Of a DNA stretch of 35,873 nucleotides, positions 404 to 13,195 are shown in pieces (the stretch's first letter is position 1; each line of letters starts with the position of its first letter). Under the pieces are notes generated by a model that was given only the letters and a program-made list of their open reading frames with translations, searched no databases and was not told the DNA's origin. Made by a program: the position numbers and the translations under genes. Source of the stretch: Opitutus sp. GAS368 (GTDB lineage Bacteria; Verrucomicrobiota; Verrucomicrobiia; Opitutales; UBA953); NCBI GenBank assembly GCA_943330755.2, contig CALQIY020000008.1, positions 1 to 35,873 on the forward strand, in the 5' to 3' direction.

Positions 404-429
404 AAAGGCCGCCTGAAAAGGCGGCCTTT
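404..429 (-). terminator. Rho-independent terminator of the ExbB/ExbD operon
   Basis: Perfect 10-bp stem aaaggccgcc-tgaaaa-ggcggccttt; on the minus strand it is followed by a T-rich run (TTTTATT), just after the exbD stop at 448. Confidence 0.85.
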
Positions 430-447
430 CGTCGACGAGGCGTCGGC

Positions 448-891
448 TTATTCCGGCTCCGCGACCGCGAAGGTCACGTTGGTGATGTCGGCGCGGGCCA
501 GCACATCGAGGACGTTGATCACCCGCTCGTACTTGGCCGCTTCCTCGGCTTGCACCGTGATGAGCAACTTCGTCTTCGATTGTTTGGCCGCCGTCGCCAT
601 CTTCGACATCTCGTTGTAGAGGTTGTCCAAGGTCTTGTCGTTGGGCTGGCCGACGGGGTCCTCGTTGATGGTGATGGTGCCGTTCTCCGAAACGCCGATG
701 GTGATTTCATCGGGCATCTCGGTTTCCTTGGCCGTCTCGGCATTGCCGGGGAGGGTGGTCTTCAGTTCGTGCTCCACCTTCACGGCACCGGCCATCACCA
801 TGAAGAAGAGCATGATCACGAAGACCACGTCGATCATCGGGGCGATCTGGAAGCCGGCGTCGGACGGCATTTCTTGGGGGGCTTGTTTCAT
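448..891 (-). CDS. ExbD/TolR-family biopolymer transport protein (second paralog)
   Basis: Single N-terminal TM with conserved Asp: GFQIAPMIDVVFVIMLFFMVMAGAVKVEHELKTTLP; 147 aa. Confidence 0.88.
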   Translation of the reverse strand: MKQAPQEMPSDAGFQIAPMIDVVFVIMLFFMVMAGAVKVEHELKTTLPGNAETAKETEMPDEITIGVSENGTITINEDPVGQPNDKTLDNLYNEMSKMATAAKQSKTKLLITVQAEEAAKYERVINVLDVLARADITNVTFAVAEPE

Positions 892-894
892 GGC

Positions 895-1335
895 TTATTC
901 CTCGCGGTTGAGGCCAGAGAAGGCGATGTTGTCGATCCCCGCTTCGGCGCCCCATTCGAGGGCCTTGGAGATGTACTTGGCGTGGCACTGGCGATCGGCG
1001 CGGATGAGCAGGCGGAACTTCTCGTTCGTGCCCTTGCGGGCCGCCAATTCCTTGGCGATGCCATCCTTGTCGTTGATGTCCAGCTCGCGGTCGTCGAGTT
1101 TGTACTTCGCCTGGCCGGTGTTCTTGTCCCAGGAGATGTTGATCAGGCCGGCGGCGGCCTTGTCGTCGCGCTTCACGCCGTGCGAAGCCACGGGCAGCGC
1201 GATGTTCTTGTCGACCTTGAGCACCTGGGCCGAGGTGATCGACATGAAGAAGATCAGCAGCACCAGGAGGACGTCGATCATCGGCGCCACCTGGAACTCG
1301 GGTTCCCCGTCTCCGCCTCCGCCTCCGCCTGCCAT
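895..1335 (-). CDS. ExbD/TolR-family biopolymer transport protein (first paralog)
   Basis: EFQVAPMIDVLLVLLIFFMSITSAQVLKVDKNIALPVA with conserved TM Asp; 3 nt upstream of the second exbD; 146 aa. Confidence 0.88.
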   Translation of the reverse strand: MAGGGGGGDGEPEFQVAPMIDVLLVLLIFFMSITSAQVLKVDKNIALPVASHGVKRDDKAAAGLINISWDKNTGQAKYKLDDRELDINDKDGIAKELAARKGTNEKFRLLIRADRQCHAKYISKALEWGAEAGIDNIAFSGLNREE

Positions 1336-1369
1336 GGTTCGTGTGTGGGTTTAAGGGGTGGAGGGAACC

Positions 1370-2167
1370 TTAGGCCTTGGGGGCTTCAGGGGCGACTTCC
1401 GCCGGGGCGGCATTCCAGTCGGGCTTCGCCGCGTAGATCACTTCATCGCCGATGGCGTGGCCAGCGACTTCGTCGTAGGGGAAGGCGCGGAAGAGGCCGG
1501 TGACGATCTCTTGGATGTCATGGATGCCCTTGGTGATGCGGTTGCGGAGGAGGTAGTAGCAGATGAACGCCGGGATCGCGATGAACAGACCCGAAGCGGT
1601 GGCCACGAGCACTTCGCCGATGGCGCCGGCGAGCTGGGACGGGTCACCCACGCCGGAGGAGCCGAGCTTGTCGAACGCCTTCATCATGCCCGTCACCGTG
1701 CCGGTGAGGCCGATCATCGGGGTGCAGACGCCGATGACGGAGAGGTAGGACGCGCGGCCCATGAGCTCGCCTTGGATGCGCGTGACTTCGGAGATGATGG
1801 CCTCTTCGGTCATCACCTTGCCATCTGGAGTGAAGGCGACGCCGGCGCGGACGACTTCGGCGACCGGGGAGCCCGCGTTCTTGGCGAAGTTGTAGGCGCC
1901 CGGGTAGTCGCCGCGCTGGAAGAGCTCGCGGAGCTGGGTGACGTGGCCGGCCGGGTAGAGCTTCTTTTCGCTCGTGCGGATCCAGCCGTCGACGATGAAC
2001 CAGATCATGGCCACGGAGGCGATGGTGATCGGGTACATGACCCAACCGCCTTCTTCGAAGAGGTCGAGGAGGGTCTTTTCCTTGACGCCGCCTTCGGCCG
2101 CGGAGGCGACGACGGTCATGAGGCCGAGGAGGCCCAAGGTGAATAGGGAGGAGCGGAGTTTCTTCAT
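1370..2167 (-). CDS. MotA/TolQ/ExbB proton-channel family protein with N-terminal signal-like extension
   Basis: Likely start MKKLRSSLFTLGLLGLMTVVASAAEGG (cat 2165-2167) inside ORF 1370..2227; YLSVIGVCTPMIGLTGTVTGMMKAFDKLG and VLVATASGLFIAIPAFICYYLLRNR are typical ExbB/TolQ segments. Confidence 0.9.
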   Translation of the reverse strand: MKKLRSSLFTLGLLGLMTVVASAAEGGVKEKTLLDLFEEGGWVMYPITIASVAMIWFIVDGWIRTSEKKLYPAGHVTQLRELFQRGDYPGAYNFAKNAGSPVAEVVRAGVAFTPDGKVMTEEAIISEVTRIQGELMGRASYLSVIGVCTPMIGLTGTVTGMMKAFDKLGSSGVGDPSQLAGAIGEVLVATASGLFIAIPAFICYYLLRNRITKGIHDIQEIVTGLFRAFPYDEVAGHAIGDEVIYAAKPDWNAAPAEVAPEAPKA

Positions 2168-2223
2168 GGGAACGCTGCGGGTGTGGGGATGGTTTAGTTT
2201 GGGATTAGAAAAGGAGCAAGGTC

Positions 2224-3252
2224 TCACTTGTTGCCCTCGTTGCTGTTGGCGTTGTCGGCCTTCGGGGCATCGGGCTTGGCCGTCGCGTCGGGGATGACGG
2301 CGGCATCTTTGATCTTGGCGGCATCGGCTTCGGCCGCGAGGCGGTCTTCCTTGGGGAGGAGCTTCTTCGCTTCCTCGGCTTCTTTCGAGACCGGGAACGT
2401 GGCGATCAGGTCGCGGAGGTAGCGGTTGGAGATCTCTTCCAGGCGCTGCTCCTTGGTGGCGGGGCTATCCATGCCGCGGAAGGCCCGGGCGGCCCCGAGC
2501 AACGCCTTGGGGAGGTGCTCGGCCTGCGCGCCGTAGAAGACCGGCACGCGGAGGTAGGTATTCATGGCCGCCTCGTATTTCTTGGTGGCGAGGAGCGAAC
2601 CGCCTTTGACGATGTGCAGGCGGGCGAGGACGTCCGGATCATCCAGTTTGGAGATGAGGTCCGCGGCCTCGGTGATGACCGCGTCATGCTCGCCGCGGCG
2701 GGCGCGTTGCATGAGGCGGGCCAACTTGATCTTGCTCTGCAATTCGGGGTTGGAGCCGTCGTCGTTCTTTTCGAGGTTATCGAGGAAGGCGCCGATGACC
2801 GCGTCGTTTTCGAGGCGATCCAGCGCATCCAGCTTCACCATCGAGGCCTTCAGCCAGAGGGAGCCGGGGGTCTTCTTGAACGCATCGAAGAACTTGATGA
2901 TGGGTTCGACGCTATCGAGGGCCTTGCTCGGCTCGCCGCGGCTGACGAAGAGCTGGGCCTCCGTGAGCTTGTCGACGGTGGGCCAGATGATGCGTTCGAC
3001 TTCGGCGAGTTTGCGGGTCGACTCGATGTCGGTGCCGCCGGAATTGACGGTGCGGACCACGGTGCCCTTGAGGCTGCTGATCGTGCCCTTCTTGGGGTCG
3101 ACCACCTGCTTGGGCGGCACGGAATTGTCCAACTTGAAGGGGTCGTTCACTTCCCAGCGTTCGCCCCCCTTGAAGATGAGGGTTTGGCCAAAGGTCTGGG
3201 AGGCCGCGCAGAGAAGCGCGACGGTCAGGAAGGAGCGGACGGCGGGACGCAT
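2224..3252 (-). CDS. Exported TPR-like helical repeat protein (342 aa)
   Basis: Signal peptide MRPAVRSFLTVALLCAASQTFGQ; Ala/Leu-rich helical repeats; in line with the exbB/exbD genes. Confidence 0.7.
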   Translation of the reverse strand: MRPAVRSFLTVALLCAASQTFGQTLIFKGGERWEVNDPFKLDNSVPPKQVVDPKKGTISSLKGTVVRTVNSGGTDIESTRKLAEVERIIWPTVDKLTEAQLFVSRGEPSKALDSVEPIIKFFDAFKKTPGSLWLKASMVKLDALDRLENDAVIGAFLDNLEKNDDGSNPELQSKIKLARLMQRARRGEHDAVITEAADLISKLDDPDVLARLHIVKGGSLLATKKYEAAMNTYLRVPVFYGAQAEHLPKALLGAARAFRGMDSPATKEQRLEEISNRYLRDLIATFPVSKEAEEAKKLLPKEDRLAAEADAAKIKDAAVIPDATAKPDAPKADNANSNEGNK

Positions 3253-3258
3253 GGTCGA

Positions 3259-6200
3259 TTAGAGTTTGGTCGAAAGGATGCGGGCCTCGCTGGCCTCTGG
3301 GGTGTCCTTGATGCGGTCCTTGGAAAGCATCTCGTTGATGATTTCCTTCGCGTCCTTCTTTTGGTCGAGCTTGGTGGCGAAGAGACGGGCGGCGCCCAAG
3401 TAGGCCTTGGCCGACCAAACCTCGTACTTCTTCCAGGCTTGGTAGGTGCGGCGGTAGTAGGCGACGGCTTCGGCATGGTTGCCTTGGCGTTCTTCCATGA
3501 GGCCCAGCCAGTAGAGGCAACCGGCGGTGGTCTCACCCTTCCATTCCTTGGTCTTGGCAATTTCTTCGAACTCGGCCTTGGCCTCGGCGTACTTCTGGGT
3601 TTCCGCGAGGGCGCGGGCCTTGATGAAGCGGATGTCCTTCTCCTTCGACATCACGACGTTGTTGTCGATGGCTTCGGCGCAGAGTTCGAGGGCTTCCTTG
3701 TACTTCTTCTGGGTCAGGCGGATTTCCGCCAGGCCGGCGAAGCCATAGTCGGCGTATTCCGAGGAGCGGTGGTGCTCCATGATGTACTGGAAGTAGCCCT
3801 CGGAGTTCTTGGTCTCACCCTTGCCGAGCATGTGGTCGCCGACGATCGCGAGGATGGTGGGGCTGAGCTCCTCCGCCTTGTAGTTCGCGGAGATCTTCTT
3901 GAAGTAGGTGTCCGCCTTGGCCGGATCGCGCAGGAAGGTCGCCAACTGGCCCTTCGCGAAGAAGCCACGGGCCTGGGCGATGAGCGAGTCCTTGTTTTCC
4001 TCGAGGCGCAGCAGCTTCGTGATTTCGTCCTCGGCGTTGGCCGCGGTGTAGGCATTCGGGTCGACCACCGCCCCCGGCTTCACGCGCTTCACCTTGCGGG
4101 CGAGCTTTTCGGCCAGGAAGAGGATGAGTTTCTCGGAACCCTCCTGCTTGCGGTCGTTGATGGATTCGGCAACCGCGCCGGAAAGGATGCCGAGGGCTTC
4201 CGTCTTGGAGGCGAGGATGCTGGCTTGGCGGGCCTTCTCGACGACGTCGAGTTCGGCCGCGAGTTCGGTGGAGAGCTTGGCCACGGCGGCCTTGGCGGCG
4301 GCGACCGCATCGGGCGTACCGTCGGACTTCACGAGCTCATCGACCTTCTTGCGGGCGGCGGCGAGCTGGGCGCTGAAGCGCTTCTGCACGGCGTCGGACT
4401 GCTGGGCGAACTCGGGTTTGTCGCCCATGCGTTCGGTGGCCTTGATGACTTCGTAGAGGTAGTTGAGCGACTTCGGGTCGGCATGGTCCCAATCGTAGAC
4501 TTCCTTGTAGAGGTCGCGCATGCGCGCGTGTTCGCCGCGGCCGGGGAGGAGTTTGCCGAGTTCGCGGAGGACGAAGTCCAGGGCGTTGGGGTTGGTCCGG
4601 CCCGAACGGGCGGCCGCGATGTAGGCCTCGATGGCCTTGACGGTTTGGGTTTCCTTTTCCTTCTCCAGGCGCTCCTTCTCGGCCTTGTACTTGGCCTTCA
4701 GGGCGGGCTCGGCGTTCGTGCGCAGGTTCTTGTCCGCCGTCGAGATGTCCTTGTCCAATTCCGTCGCGATGCGGATCGCCGCATCCCCGATGAGGGTGTG
4801 GACCTCGGGCACCTGGTTGACGATGCTTTCGACCTTGCTGACGCCGTAGTCCCGGAGCCACTCGTTGCAGAGGGCGATGGTCGCTTCGATTTCGGGCGGG
4901 TTGACGCCGAACTTGACGATGGCTTGGCGGTAGCGGACGTCCGCGAGGTACTCACCTTTGGGGTAGGCCTTTTGGTACTCGTCGAAGCCGACCTTGGTTT
5001 CCTTGTACTTGCCTTGGTAGAACCAGCACAGGGCGCGCATGTACATCGCCTGTTCCTTGGCGAAGGAGCGCTGGTACTTGTTCAGGAACTCGTCCAGGGC
5101 GATGCGGGCCTTATCCCAATCCACATGGGCGAAGTGGCAGCAGGCGATGCGGAAGTCGATTTCCTCCAGGGTGGAGGGGTCCATCTTCTTCACGTTCGTC
5201 TTCGCCCAGTTGTAGTGGCCGATGGCTTCTTCGAACTCTTCCCGATCCTGGGAGATGGAGCCGAGGATGACGGCCACCATGGAGACTTCTTCGGCGTCCG
5301 GGTACTTGGAGAGGAACTCCTTGCACTTGGCCTGAGCCTCGCTGTTGCGGCCGATTTCGCGGAGGGCGAGGATGTAGTAGTAGTAGGCGCCGGAGACCTT
5401 GGAGAACCCAGGGTTGTTCTCGAAGATGTCGCGGAAGGCGACGAACGCTTCCCACGGGCGCTTGAGCTCGAGGAGGCAGAGGCCGATGCGGTACGAGATG
5501 AAGGCGTCGTAGTCCTTGTTCTTCTCGAAGTCGCTCTGGATGGTCTTGAAGCTTTCCAGCTCCGCGCGGGCCTTTTCGATCTTCTCGGTGGCCTCCGGCG
5601 TCGGCTTGGGGTTGTCCTTCACGATCTTGTCCAAGTCCACCTGCTTCATCTCGACGGCCTTGGTGACCGAGCGATTGACGGTGGCGCGGCGCAGGGCGCC
5701 TTGGTAGCTGGCGAGCGCCTGGCGGTAGAGTTCTTCCTTGGCCTTCGCTTCGGAGGCGTTTTCGCCCGCCTCGAAGCGGGCGTCGCCGATTTCGATGCGC
5801 TGGAAGTTCGAGCGGACGATTTCCGCCGGCGAACCCGTCCCCTTGGCGTCGATTTCAGCCTTCAGCTGTTCGGCTTCCTTCACGAGGCCGAGTTTGGTGT
5901 AGACCTCGACCAAGCGCATGCCGCCTTCGCGGGCTTCCGGGGTGCCCAAGCCGCCGGCGGTCGCCTGCTTGAGCAGGCCCACGGCCTGCCCGAGGGCTTG
6001 CTTCTTCTCCTCCTCGGAGCCGCTCTTCGACTTTTCTTCGACGACGCGGGCGGAAAGGGTGTAGGCGTTGACGCGATCCTTGGGCTGCACCAGCGGGTTG
6101 GTGCGGAGCATCTTGAGCAGGTCGAGGGCCGGGTCCCACTTGGACTGGTTGGCGTACACTTCGACGAGCGTCAGCTGCGCGACGCCGCGCATGTTGTCGT

Positions 6201-6576
6201 TTTCGTCGATGATCCTGCCCGTGCCTTCGGGGTATTTCGTCAGGAAGGTGTTGATCTCGGTGTCGGCCTTGACCCAGTCCTTCATCAGGTAATAGGTGCG
6301 GGCGCGATGGAAGCAGACGGTCGCCTGCATGGCGGGGCCCATGTTCGCGACTTTCTTGTCGAGGTCCTCGAGGTTCTTCAGGGCGGCGGTGAACTGCTTC
6401 TTGTCGATCTCCCCCATCGTCTTGTTGTACTGCGCGGTCAACGGGTCCTCTTGGGGCTTGGCCGCGGCAGGGGCTCCCTGGGCACGAAGGGCGGTCGTTG
6501 CCGGGAGGACGGCGATAAGGACGGCAAGGATGGCAGCTTTGGCCAACTTGTAGGTGCGAGACTCTTGGGTAACCAT
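3259..6576 (-). CDS. Large exported tetratricopeptide-repeat protein (1105 aa)
   Basis: Signal peptide MVTQESRTYKLAKAAILAVLIAVLPATTALRAQG; many TPR-like segments (e.g. YAEAKAEFEEIAKTKEW, YKEALELCAEAIDNN, HAEAVAYYRRTYQAW). Confidence 0.8.
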   Translation of the reverse strand: MVTQESRTYKLAKAAILAVLIAVLPATTALRAQGAPAAAKPQEDPLTAQYNKTMGEIDKKQFTAALKNLEDLDKKVANMGPAMQATVCFHRARTYYLMKDWVKADTEINTFLTKYPEGTGRIIDENDNMRGVAQLTLVEVYANQSKWDPALDLLKMLRTNPLVQPKDRVNAYTLSARVVEEKSKSGSEEEKKQALGQAVGLLKQATAGGLGTPEAREGGMRLVEVYTKLGLVKEAEQLKAEIDAKGTGSPAEIVRSNFQRIEIGDARFEAGENASEAKAKEELYRQALASYQGALRRATVNRSVTKAVEMKQVDLDKIVKDNPKPTPEATEKIEKARAELESFKTIQSDFEKNKDYDAFISYRIGLCLLELKRPWEAFVAFRDIFENNPGFSKVSGAYYYYILALREIGRNSEAQAKCKEFLSKYPDAEEVSMVAVILGSISQDREEFEEAIGHYNWAKTNVKKMDPSTLEEIDFRIACCHFAHVDWDKARIALDEFLNKYQRSFAKEQAMYMRALCWFYQGKYKETKVGFDEYQKAYPKGEYLADVRYRQAIVKFGVNPPEIEATIALCNEWLRDYGVSKVESIVNQVPEVHTLIGDAAIRIATELDKDISTADKNLRTNAEPALKAKYKAEKERLEKEKETQTVKAIEAYIAAARSGRTNPNALDFVLRELGKLLPGRGEHARMRDLYKEVYDWDHADPKSLNYLYEVIKATERMGDKPEFAQQSDAVQKRFSAQLAAARKKVDELVKSDGTPDAVAAAKAAVAKLSTELAAELDVVEKARQASILASKTEALGILSGAVAESINDRKQEGSEKLILFLAEKLARKVKRVKPGAVVDPNAYTAANAEDEITKLLRLEENKDSLIAQARGFFAKGQLATFLRDPAKADTYFKKISANYKAEELSPTILAIVGDHMLGKGETKNSEGYFQYIMEHHRSSEYADYGFAGLAEIRLTQKKYKEALELCAEAIDNNVVMSKEKDIRFIKARALAETQKYAEAKAEFEEIAKTKEWKGETTAGCLYWLGLMEERQGNHAEAVAYYRRTYQAWKKYEVWSAKAYLGAARLFATKLDQKKDAKEIINEMLSKDRIKDTPEASEARILSTKL

Positions 6577-6620: not shown

Positions 6621-6650
6621 AAAATAGCCCTTTGGGGCGGATACTGCCAA
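6621..6650 (-). promoter_or_regulatory. Candidate sigma70-like promoter for the TPR-ExbBD operon
   Basis: On the minus strand TTGGCA-N18-TATTTT (plus-strand tgccaa 6645-6650 and aaaata 6621-6626), about 45 nt upstream of the 1105-aa ORF start. Confidence 0.4.
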
Positions 6651-7743: not shown

Positions 7744-9708
7744 TTACTTCTTCTCCACCCAGCGGCGGATCGAGAGGACTTTCCAGTTCTCGGTCTTGCC
7801 GTTGATGTTGGTCGTGAAGGACTCGTCCGGCTTGCGGTTGAGGAACTGCTTGGCCAGCGGCGAGACGTAGGCCAAGATGTTGACCTCCGGTTGGCCGTCC
7901 CAAGCTCCGAGGATATCGTAGGTCACCTCGGTCTTGTCCGATTCGCGCAGCAGCTTGACGGTCGAGCCGATGGAAACGAGCGCGGTGGTGGCTTCGGTGA
8001 AGTCGGTCACGCGGGCCTTCTTGAGCATCGCATCGAGCTCGGCGCGGCGACCGGAAAGGGTGTCATGGTCCTGGCGGGCCATCTTGTACTCGGAGTTCTC
8101 GCGCAAGTCGCCGTGTTCCTTGGCGATCTGGATCGCTTCCTTCACGGCCGGCAGTTTGACCTGCACGATGTCGGTGAGTTCGGCTTCGCGGGCTTCCTTG
8201 CTGTGCTTCGAGACCACCAGTTCCTTTTCGACGGTGGAATCATCCTGACGGGACTGGACGAGGCGCTGGACGTGCGGCTCGATCTTGGCGAGGCGCGCGA
8301 GGAGCGAGTTCTTCGTCATCTTGTCGAAGCCTTGGTTGCGCAGCATGATGCGAGCCAGGTCGAAGATGGTTTCGCTGTCGGCCTGCTTGCCGCCGGCCGG
8401 GGCGATGATGTCGGAGATGAGGGCCTTGTCCTTGATGAGCTCGTTGGCCAGCGGGATGCGGGCGGTCGAGTTCGATTCCAGGGCTTCGGTGTCGATGCTC
8501 GCCAGGATGGAACCGAGGAAGCTCGGGACGATGAGCGGGGCGACGATTTCGGCGTACTTCTTGGAGTCGCGGTTCTTGATGACCCAGATGATGACCGGCG
8601 GACGGAGTTCGCGGGTTTCGAGCCACTGCGCGAAGCGCTGGCCGACGTGGGCGCTGAGGCCGGCGTCGCAGAGGTAGGAGATGCACTCCGAGACGAGCTT
8701 GGCGGAGCCGCTCTTGGTGCCGCCGATGTCGCGGTTGCGGAGGAGGTCGAAGGCGCGGTCGGACCAGTTGTCGCCGTGGTGCGCGCGGACGAGGTCGAGG
8801 AGGCTGCGGATCTTCTCGGTCGTGTGCGGGATGCTCAGGGCCACGTGCGCGAGGTCGTTTTCGTCGCAGAGGGCGATGATGTCCGAGGCCGTCGGGCTGA
8901 AGGTTTCGACGGTTTCCACCGCGGTGCGGAAGAACTTGTCGCGGTTCCAGATGGCGCTGAGCACCTTCGGGAGGTTGGCCGAGCGGCGCGAACCGGTCAG
9001 GCCAGCGACGGCCTTGGCGAGGTCGCTCGACACTTTGGCGAGGTTGGCTTCGGTAGCCGCCGAGCGGGTCTCGGCGGAAGAGCTCTCGGCGAGTTCTTCG
9101 AGGAGGGCCAGCTTGCGCTCGAAATTGGGGGCCAGTTCGTACTGGGCGAAGAGGTCTTCGCCGAGGTCGACCGGGGCTTCGAGGAGGGCGTAGTTGCCGC
9201 CCTTGCGCTCAGGGATGAGGATGGCGCGGTCCTTGCGGAGGGCGGCGCGACCCTTGGTCCACCAGGCCTTGAAGGCGGCGGCGCGATCCTTGCCGGAGGC
9301 GAGGGAAGCGAAGTGGACGCGTTCGAGGTTGGCTTCGAGGGCGTAAGAGGAGCATTCCCCCGTCGGGAGTTCGGCGAGGAGGGCCTTCACGAGACCGGCG
9401 GGATCGTCGGAGACAAGGGCAGCCACCTTGGCCTTGCCTTCATCGGAGTAAGCCTGGGCGATCAGGGAGGTGGAGTCGATGATGTCGATCTTGCCGGCGA
9501 AGAACGCGGCATCGATGACATGGCCTTTCTTGGCCTGTTCGGGGAAGTCGACGGTGAAGCGGTTGGTCGCGGCGTCGAAGGCGCGGATGACGCCGATGCC
9601 CCAAGCTTGATGGAGGCAGAATCCGGTCTGTCCTTCGGATACCTTGGTCTTGGTATTCTCCAGAGCGTTGATTTTTCCACCTTGTGGGTTGGGGGCCTTG
9701 TTGCTCAT
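7744..9708 (-). CDS. greA: GreA-family transcription elongation factor with ~500-aa N-terminal extension
   Basis: C-terminal part EIQIAKEHGDLRENSEYKMARQDHDTLSGRRAELDAMLKKARV and GSTVKLLRESDKTEVTYDILG...ISPLAKQFLNRKPDE-type Gre domain; likely start MSNKAPNPQGG at 9708 within ORF 7744..9807. Confidence 0.82.
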   Translation of the reverse strand: MSNKAPNPQGGKINALENTKTKVSEGQTGFCLHQAWGIGVIRAFDAATNRFTVDFPEQAKKGHVIDAAFFAGKIDIIDSTSLIAQAYSDEGKAKVAALVSDDPAGLVKALLAELPTGECSSYALEANLERVHFASLASGKDRAAAFKAWWTKGRAALRKDRAILIPERKGGNYALLEAPVDLGEDLFAQYELAPNFERKLALLEELAESSSAETRSAATEANLAKVSSDLAKAVAGLTGSRRSANLPKVLSAIWNRDKFFRTAVETVETFSPTASDIIALCDENDLAHVALSIPHTTEKIRSLLDLVRAHHGDNWSDRAFDLLRNRDIGGTKSGSAKLVSECISYLCDAGLSAHVGQRFAQWLETRELRPPVIIWVIKNRDSKKYAEIVAPLIVPSFLGSILASIDTEALESNSTARIPLANELIKDKALISDIIAPAGGKQADSETIFDLARIMLRNQGFDKMTKNSLLARLAKIEPHVQRLVQSRQDDSTVEKELVVSKHSKEAREAELTDIVQVKLPAVKEAIQIAKEHGDLRENSEYKMARQDHDTLSGRRAELDAMLKKARVTDFTEATTALVSIGSTVKLLRESDKTEVTYDILGAWDGQPEVNILAYVSPLAKQFLNRKPDESFTTNINGKTENWKVLSIRRWVEKK

Positions 9709-9758
9709 TGCAAAAAGTGGTTTTGGGCATAACAAATCGCACTTGCAAGCAGGAAGGC

Positions 9759-11591: not shown

Positions 11592-12074
11592 TTACCAAGC
11601 GGTGGTGGCGGCTTCGCGAATCTGCGCGGCGAGATCGCCCAGCAGTCCGGGCGCGAGGCTGCGCTCCTCGGAAGCGGCATCGCCGGTGATTTGGAGCGTC
11701 GTCACCGCGGTGAAGTGGCGGTCCTTGAACAGGACCTTCTGGCCGGCGTCGGTGGTGAGCGTGCAGCGCGCGACCACCGTCACGCGGTAGCTCGAATAGC
11801 TGTAAGCATCGGTCGACTTCGTCGTCAGGCCTTCCCGGCGGTAGGTGACGACTTCGACGTCGAGCTTGGCGCCACCGGTGCCGACCTTGATGCGCGGGTC
11901 GCGGCCGAGGTCTTCGACGAGTTTTTCCCGGAAGATGGCCTGCAGCCCGGGGCGCGCCGTGGTGTTGCGGATCGGCAGCACCTCGATCCGGGAGAAGGCC
12001 GGCTTCGGCCCGCCGAGTTGGTATGCGGAGCAACCCGTCAGGACGGCGGCGGTGAGGAGGGCGAGGAGGCGCAT
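11592..12074 (-). CDS. Putative LptE-like outer-membrane LPS-assembly lipoprotein
   Basis: Lipobox signal MRLLALLTAAVLTGCSAYQLGG followed by LptE-like pattern (FSRIEVLPIRNTTARPGLQAIFREKLVEDLGRDPRIKV). Confidence 0.65.
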   Translation of the reverse strand: MRLLALLTAAVLTGCSAYQLGGPKPAFSRIEVLPIRNTTARPGLQAIFREKLVEDLGRDPRIKVGTGGAKLDVEVVTYRREGLTTKSTDAYSYSSYRVTVVARCTLTTDAGQKVLFKDRHFTAVTTLQITGDAASEERSLAPGLLGDLAAQIREAATTAW

Positions 12075-13195
12075 CAGCGGCGTTCGGTTTCGGTGGCAGG
12101 TTTGGTCGCTTCCTTGCGGAAACCGAGCGCATCGAGTTCGTCGCCGACGGCCGTGGGCTTGGCGTCGGTGTTCGTGCGCGGACGCGGATAGACGCCGAGC
12201 AGGCGGTCGGCGACGGTCTTCGGCGGCGTGGGGTTCGCTTGGATTTCGGCGAGCAAGGTTTCCGCCTCCTTGGCGGCTTCCGATTCCGGCGCCAGGCTGC
12301 GGCACGCGTTGGCCATCAACTTGGCGGCTTCCGGGTTGTTGCGCTTGAACCAATAGAACTTTCCGAGGTTGAGGCGACCGCGGGCCGCGCGGTCGCGGAG
12401 TTCCTTGATCTGTTCGGCGGATTGTTGGGCGCGCCGGTTCCCGGGGAATTGATCCGCCAGCGTGCGCCAGTGGTCGGCGGATTCCAGCGTGGAGGCTTGG
12501 TCGAAGTCCGGTCCCAGCGACTCGGAGCCGCGCAGCTTGGCGAGGCGCTCCAACGCTTCCGGGGCATACTTCGAGGTGGCGTAGTCGCTCACGATGCGCT
12601 CCAACATCTCATTGTAGATTTCCTTGCGGTCTTCGCGCTCGGCCAGGCGGGCCGCTTTGATGAGGCTCTCTTCGGCGACGGGCCCGTTGGGCGCGACTTT
12701 CAGGATCTTGTCGTAGATGCTCAGGGCGTGGAGGGGATCCTTGAACCACGGAAACCAGCCACCGAGGTAGCGCCGTTCGCCGCGTTCGTATTGACCGGCC
12801 AAGTCGAAGGCGAGCTGGACGGCCAAGCCGAAGCCGGAAAAGTTCGCATGGCTCTTGAAGAGGGTGTCGAGGTCGGCCTCCGCGTTGTCGAACTGGCCCG
12901 ACTTCGCATAGAGGCGCGCGCGTCCGAGGAGGGCGACCGCTTCGGCGTCGGTGCCGGCTTCCGCTTCGATCAGCCGGTTCCAGAGCGTGAGGGCCGCGCG
13001 GTCTTCGCGCATGATCGCCAAGTTCTCCGCTTGGTCGATCGTCTTGAGGACGGCCTCCGTGCGGCTCGTGGGCCGGGTATCCGAGGCGCTCCCGGGCTTG
13101 AGGACCCAGCCGCCGTTTTGATGGATGAGTTCGGCTGAAACCGAAAGGCTCAGCAGGCAGCAGGCTGCGAGGAAAGGTTTAGCGACGAGGTTCAT
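12074..13195 (-). CDS. Exported TPR/BamD (YfiO)-like protein (373 aa)
   Basis: Signal peptide MNLVAKPFLAACCLLSLSVSAE; TPR-type repeats with BamD-like spacing (YDKILKVAPNGPVAEESLIKAARLAEREDRKEIYNEMLERIVSDYATSKYAPEALERLA). Confidence 0.6.
   Translation of the reverse strand: MNLVAKPFLAACCLLSLSVSAELIHQNGGWVLKPGSASDTRPTSRTEAVLKTIDQAENLAIMREDRAALTLWNRLIEAEAGTDAEAVALLGRARLYAKSGQFDNAEADLDTLFKSHANFSGFGLAVQLAFDLAGQYERGERRYLGGWFPWFKDPLHALSIYDKILKVAPNGPVAEESLIKAARLAEREDRKEIYNEMLERIVSDYATSKYAPEALERLAKLRGSESLGPDFDQASTLESADHWRTLADQFPGNRRAQQSAEQIKELRDRAARGRLNLGKFYWFKRNNPEAAKLMANACRSLAPESEAAKEAETLLAEIQANPTPPKTVADRLLGVYPRPRTNTDAKPTAVGDELDALGFRKEATKPATETERR

Follow-up and report, generated by a model that had tools for sequence, protein, structure and literature searches.

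A TPR-scaffolded ExbB/ExbD motor operon of Opitutus sp. GAS368, with candidate unlinked transducers and apparent homology to the Akkermansia mucin locus MUL1

What does an ExbB/ExbD-type motor drive when its operon encodes no TonB or TolA? The question is raised by a five-gene operon of Opitutus sp. GAS368 that encodes, in this order, two proteins described as tetratricopeptide repeat (TPR) proteins, TPR1 and TPR2, an ExbB and two different ExbDs. We analysed the operon in a window of 35,873 nucleotides, which is contig C8 (CALQIY020000008.1) of a freshwater metagenome-assembled genome (MAG) of 2.32 Mb in 203 contigs, estimated to be 81% complete. All five open reading frames (ORFs) were confirmed on the minus strand (Table 1), with intergenic gaps from TPR1 to ExbD2 of 6, 56, 34 and 3 nt, in agreement with a preliminary description of five co-directional genes separated by 56 nt or less. 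That description had taken the operon for an uncharacterised, proton-motive-force driven envelope machine in which the TPR proteins stand in place of TonB/TolA. We favour, with a probability of roughly 55%, an envelope machine in which one motor serves several transducers, with TPR scaffolds, transducer arms encoded away from the operon, and glycan import as its likely task. The architecture is well supported; by analogy with a relative, the machine would most likely work to capture large glycans and bring them into the periplasm.

The motor subunits were assigned by family and by residue. ExbB matches Pfam MotA_ExbB (1.4e-24), ExbD1 and ExbD2 match Pfam ExbD (1.5e-15 and 5.4e-21), residues T157, E185 and T190 of ExbB align with T148, E176 and T181 of E. 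coli ExbB, and each ExbD keeps the transmembrane Asp, as D21 in the alignment. ExbB starts at the ATG at 2167, with a GTG at 2227 also open. Signal-peptide-like N termini can be read from the sequences of TPR1, TPR2 and ExbB. These observations agree with what had been said of ExbB and the two ExbDs; of the claim that both TPR proteins are exported members of that family, the signal-like N termini stand and TPR1 matches Pfam TPR_6 (1.9e-18), whereas a sequence-based Pfam search gave no TPR match for TPR2. The curated models all scored below their cut-offs: ExbB reached 49.9 bits against 206 for the exbB equivalog and 66 against 221 for tolQ, and the ExbDs reached 52 and 69 bits against 127 for tolR and 32–34 against 153 for ExbD_1. 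Among the curated models, both ExbDs score best with TolR. Together with the conservation of the block, these data support a conserved machine of the proton-motive-force type, as had been proposed, that is distinct from Ton and Tol.

Profile searches with TonB_C, OmpA/Pal and TolB_N placed nothing on the window's contig, consistent with the earlier statement that TonB, TolB and Pal are absent from the window. In the rest of the genome, TonB_C matches were found only on C45 (5.6e-18) and C33 (5.1e-5), a Pal-like lipoprotein only on C15, and no TolB_N match in the 81% of the genome estimated to be present. Three other ExbB-type genes were found, in a conventional ExbB-ExbD-TonB/TolA-like trio on C21, in an ExbB-ExbD pair on C23, and on C92. 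The last of these lies in a TPR (985 aa)-ExbB-ExbD operon (L007:3755-7819) whose ExbB falls outside the clade of block-associated ExbBs and whose ExbD is a weak match. The TonB_C proteins of C45 or C33 could in principle be driven by the window's motor as a second Ton system serving TonB-dependent transporters. We consider this very improbable: only one TonB plug receptor turned up, BtuB-like by sequence, the C21 trio already provides a conventional system, and the exbB equivalog score is low.

The TPR genes do not stand beside the motor by accident. Scanning named genomes with TPR2 gave 44 records, the majority of them Opitutae MAGs from lakes. Among these, the five-gene block was complete in every sufficiently long contig, so that the block is not a chance arrangement. 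End-to-end homologues of TPR1 were found in at least 85 of 289 sampled Verrucomicrobiota genomes. At 19 of 20 TPR1 loci from other families the order was TPR1, TPR2 slot, ExbB, ExbD, ExbD; the exception, L206, is without ExbD. Because this order is kept across the 44 records and the 19 loci, the TPR genes emerge from the synteny survey as inseparable neighbours of the motor. We also observed trios of TPR1, TPR2 and ExbB for which no adjacent ExbD was found (L098:6174-10840, L099:4598-9306, L101:6941-11466, L104:6871-12034 and L206:9749-14660); four of these five form an ExbB sub-branch of their own. Two records titled 'Akkermansia muciniphila' (L184) and 'Polynucleobacter meluiroseus' (L181) carry an Opitutae-type block at about 60% identity and are probably mislabelled MAGs.

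In relatives, a candidate for the missing arm stands beside the motor. At 25 related loci the gene right after ExbD2, often joined to it by translational overlap, encodes a protein with TonB/TolA topology (at two of the 25, one small gene intervenes), and this holds for 15 of the 19 loci with the five-gene order in other families. These transducers have a membrane helix, usually with S-x3-H, a Gly/Pro-rich linker, and a head of the vWA, PA14 or cyclase-like type. The helix carries [S/T]-x3-H in 19 of the 25 and His in 23, the S-x3-H being as in E. coli TolA. A six-gene operon with a PA14-type transducer occurs in families f25 (L084) and f14 (L155), which belong to the same order. In family f27, a transducer with a squalene-hopene-cyclase-like head occupies the slot after ExbD2 (L088:5479-7314). 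A linked transducer was not seen in Akkermansia, in the sister genus of the window genus (L223), or at loci L216, L218 and L221. TPR-TolQ-TolR-TolR-vWA clusters in the PVC superphylum were reported in a 2025 paper that gave no function for them but noted that the vWA transducers carry the TonB/TolA His and suggested a gliding role for these transducers (PMC12204202); several of our loci (L097, L100, L103, L107 and others) match that arrangement exactly. An Agl/Glt-like gliding or adhesion motor, holding on to surface polymers by its vWA and PA14 heads, would suit the adhesion-type nature of both domains as well as that suggestion. It is nonetheless the least probable reading weighed here, since the literature describes Akkermansia, itself a carrier of the module, as non-motile (PMC12418764), and no gliding gene turned up, with no search aimed at gliding genes.

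With the profile of the linked transducers, genes of this family were traced to further contigs of the window genome. At least six transducers were found there, of which those on C64 (two) and C120 are of the PA14 type and those on C47 (two) and C164 of the vWA type. S-x3-H, with the conserved motor-binding His, is present in the membrane helix of all six. Pfam identified PA14 in 9 of the 12 aligned members of the PA14-type set. In the alignment of the vWA-type set (A4), S60 and H64 are invariant; Pfam gave only VWA_CoxE at 0.21 for its heads, which is not significant, and the vWA label rests on profile similarity to the A1 proteins (hhalign 96.7%, the alignment spanning helix, linker and the start of the head) together with a DxSGSM-like motif. 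A match to the transducer family was found in 37 of 38 genus genomes searched. By contrast, the operon is without a transducer gene throughout the window genus in the 44-record block survey, and none lies between ExbD2 and the terminator in the window. Since the arm is linked in relatives and occurs here unlinked in at least six copies, the window genus seems, on gene order and profile matches, to have moved the arm out of the motor operon and to have increased its copy number. A vWA-type gene lies 22–24 kb from the block in 14 genus genomes; we did not use this as evidence of coupling, as the linkage may reflect only general gene-order conservation.

The transducers bear directly on the claim that the TPR proteins replace TonB/TolA. 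A motor whose direct mechanical load is the TPR proteins, and which needs no TonB/TolA-like arm, would fit the genus-wide lack of a transducer gene in the operon and the similar lack in Akkermansia, the sister genus of the window genus and the three further loci. We regard this as improbable, and the claim is not supported by the survey, given the 25 operons with a transducer after ExbD2 and the retention of the same family, unlinked, within the genus. Moreover, sequence and models show neither a retained membrane helix nor an S-x3-H membrane motif in TPR1 or TPR2, as would suit scaffolds better than a TonB-like arm. The AlphaFold2 (AF2) model of TPR1 is all-alpha, a solenoid with about 50 helices (mean predicted local distance difference test score, pLDDT, 85), and that of TPR2 has a small beta domain at residues 24–89 and then a solenoid of helical repeats (mean pLDDT 81.6). 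Fold searches returned generic eukaryotic TPR solenoids with template-modelling scores (TM-scores) near 0.2 for TPR1, which are uninformative, and nothing below 1e-3 for TPR2; sequence searches of solved structures with TPR2 and Mul1B gave no match.

We propose that the operon encodes an inner-membrane motor that belongs by family to the proton-motive-force type, made of ExbB and two different ExbDs, together with two periplasmic TPR scaffolds. An ExbB pentamer would surround an ExbD1/ExbD2 heterodimer, and force would be carried to the outer membrane by a transducer with TonB/TolA topology that belongs to a family of its own, not by a TPR protein. The PA14-headed and vWA-headed transducers would probably share the one motor, and the TPR solenoids would most likely hold the motor, the transducer heads and outer-membrane partners together. 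Such a machine may bring large glycans into the periplasm, as MUL1 does with mucin in Akkermansia.

The link to MUL1 comes from both TPR proteins and from ExbB. Going by the Mul1B family name, we take family f23 to be Akkermansiaceae and genome G167 to be A. muciniphila, and the large TPR protein of the Akkermansia locus is presumably Mul1A. TPR2 matches the NCBIfam model mucin_mul1B_fam ('Mul1B family putative transporter subunit') with an E-value of 8.1e-5, below the cut-off. Within the phylum sample, the Mul1B family exceeds its cut-off only in f23, where the gene adjoins a TPR protein of about 1000–1100 aa; in most of the f23 loci read, ExbB-ExbD-ExbD come first and then TPR and Mul1B, and three loci are without a motor. 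Profile comparison aligned TPR1 with the Akkermansia TPR proteins end to end (Prob 100, E 4.9e-38), whereas the control, a TPR protein encoded on C92 of the same MAG as TPR1, aligned out of register (E 6.4e-7). An earlier iterated TPR1 profile made without this control had drifted to all TPR proteins and was superseded by the controlled comparison. TPR2 and Mul1B are remote homologues by hhalign (98.2%, E 3.6e-13). In the ExbB tree, the block-associated ExbBs, including those of Akkermansia, group together in a single clade with support of 97/88, and both the other three ExbBs of the genome and the E. coli proteins ExbB and TolQ fall outside it. Inside the clade, f25 and f27 are grouped with the window genus, and Akkermansia is on a branch of its own. 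The window block also has the large TPR gene beside ExbB-ExbD-ExbD that marks the MUL1 type. By these comparisons the module is homologous to A. muciniphila MUL1, for which Davey et al. 2023 is said to be the primary description.

According to published summaries of the Mul1A/Mul1B mucin utilisation locus (MUL1; PMC13174399, PMC12418764, PMC12928651, PMC11790493), the MUL genes, whose products are pili and a protein complex of the periplasm, are needed for mucin accumulation (PMC12418764, PMC12928651). Given this homology and the PVC clusters reported in 2025, 'uncharacterised' is not quite the right word for the operon. No MUL1 synteny was reported in aquatic Akkermansiaceae (PMC13174399). 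We found TPR/Mul1B-family pairs, several of them with motor genes, in non-Akkermansia genera of f23, and if our reading is correct the reported absence would need revision. TPR1-Mul1B pairs without a nearby motor were seen in non-Akkermansia f23 members at L080:9864-13744, L081:6507-10613 and L083:9793-12140.

Several features of the genome point to glycans as the likely cargo. With a single BtuB-like receptor and no SusD_RagB match in a genome estimated to be 81% complete, the organism does not appear to be set up for SusCD-type import; since, in addition, mucin is imported by the nearest relative that has been characterised, complex glycans are likely to be what the machine captures and imports. 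The C64 transducer pair adjoins an RbsD/FucU gene, a zinc dehydrogenase gene and an L-fuconolactonase-like gene, and beside the corresponding pair in genome G156 these neighbours recur, together with an aldo/keto reductase gene. MUL1 homology and these C64 neighbours lead us to favour glycan capture and import. PA14 transducer pairs convergent with RbsD/FucU and L-fuconolactonase-like genes lie at L119:350-6358 and L120:3633-9688 and are conserved between two species.

The main rival is a housekeeping role like that of Tol-Pal, in which the motor and the TPR proteins maintain outer-membrane attachment and constriction and do not import. The best curated models for TPR1 are YbgF (YbgF/CpoB; 1.2e-19) and BamD (1.6e-17), the ExbDs score highest with TolR, TolB_N is missing from the genome searched, and TPR1 is present in all 37 same-genus genomes searched, which suggests housekeeping. 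We judge this reading unlikely, because none of the YbgF, BamD and TolR models reaches its cut-off, a separate TolQ-TolR-TolA-like trio on C21 and a Pal-like lipoprotein on C15 are available, the loci read showed no linkage of TolB or Pal to the block, and mucin use has been connected with the Akkermansia homologue (PMC12418764, PMC12928651).

The reading of a shared motor with glycan import also has evidence against it. Coupling between motor and transducers rests on linkage in relatives, and the motors of C21 or C92 could drive the unlinked transducers instead. TPR2 scores 22 bits against the 75-bit cut-off of the Mul1B family (NF052542), and the Akkermansia module, from which the function is borrowed, is another branch with another gene order. 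In Akkermansia we found no S-x3-H transducer, the PA14-type proteins examined there being without the His. A helix-linker-PA14 protein that resembles the transducers and is missing the His was observed in an A. muciniphila-like genome (L150:7433-8680).

A bolder reading, which we put forward tentatively and with the odds somewhat against it, is that these loci represent a third class of trans-envelope energy system beside Ton and Tol, a single TPR-scaffolded ExbB/ExbD1/ExbD2 motor with interchangeable transducers that in Verrucomicrobiota would replace SusCD/TonB for 'selfish' uptake of complex glycans into the periplasm. The transducers would share a TonB-like helix and linker and differ in their PA14, vWA or cyclase-like heads, and the Akkermansia mucin machine would be one branch. 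Our favoured reading would join the Akkermansia mucin-uptake locus and the PVC TPR-TolQR-vWA clusters into one machine family and name candidate force-transmitting parts for Verrucomicrobiota; if it is true, the way in which these bacteria take large polysaccharides across the outer membrane in the absence of SusCD can be put to the test.

Coordinates of the operon are collected in Table 1. The strong terminator described earlier is a perfect inverted repeat. The candidate promoter at 6621–6650 is at chance level and provides no evidence of a promoter, since shuffled sequences give 0.9 equal matches on average. Elsewhere in the window, 7744–9711 (minus strand) encodes a protein of 655–687 aa with C-terminal GreA/GreB domains and a long N-terminal extension, and 12074–13195 (minus strand) encodes a 373 aa BamD/YfiO-like TPR protein, with no relationship to the block in the tests made.

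Table 1. Features of the motor operon in the window, with the evidence for each.
Feature	Position	Strand	Length	Evidence
TPR1	3259..6576	-	1105 aa	ORF, Pfam TPR, profile match, AF2 model
TPR2	2224..3252	-	342 aa	ORF, NCBIfam (sub-cut-off), hhalign, AF2 model
ExbB/TolQ-like proton-channel subunit	1370..2167	-	265 aa	Pfam, residues, ExbB clade
ExbD1/TolR-like subunit	895..1335	-	146 aa	Pfam, alignment
ExbD2/TolR-like subunit	448..891	-	147 aa	Pfam, alignment, linkage in relatives
Rho-independent terminator ending the operon	404..429	-		dG -21.9 kcal/mol, z-score -4.4
Promoter-like match upstream of TPR1, not significant	6621..6650	-		9/12 bases

Compared with known systems, the motor is homologous to those of E. 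coli Ton (ExbB-ExbD-TonB) and Tol-Pal (TolQ-TolR-TolA), with the ExbB Thr and Glu and the ExbD Asp conserved. Unlike these systems, the window block has two different ExbDs and TPR scaffolds, its transducer family has no TonB_C or TolA head, and its subunits fall below the curated tolQ, exbB, tolR and exbD cut-offs. The Campylobacter flagellar periplasmic scaffold (PDB 9hmf) is likewise a periplasmic scaffold built of helical repeats that belongs to a stator-driven motor; it is a weak fold match to TPR1 (2.5e-7) and TPR2 (0.011), with low TM-scores and many unrelated TPR proteins scoring better, and serves as an analogy only. MUL1 of Akkermansia has the same five components, namely ExbB, two ExbDs, a TPR protein of about 1000–1100 aa and Mul1B, but there the motor genes come first, whereas the window order starts with TPR1; the substrate of MUL1 is mucin. 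The PVC clusters of PMC12204202 share with the window block the TPR gene, the TolQ-like gene and the heterologous pair of TolR-like genes. They differ in that their vWA transducer is linked to the motor, whereas in the window a terminator follows ExbD2 and the transducer of the genus is unlinked and multiplied, and their description is without the PA14-type and cyclase-like heads that we found in the transducer slot.

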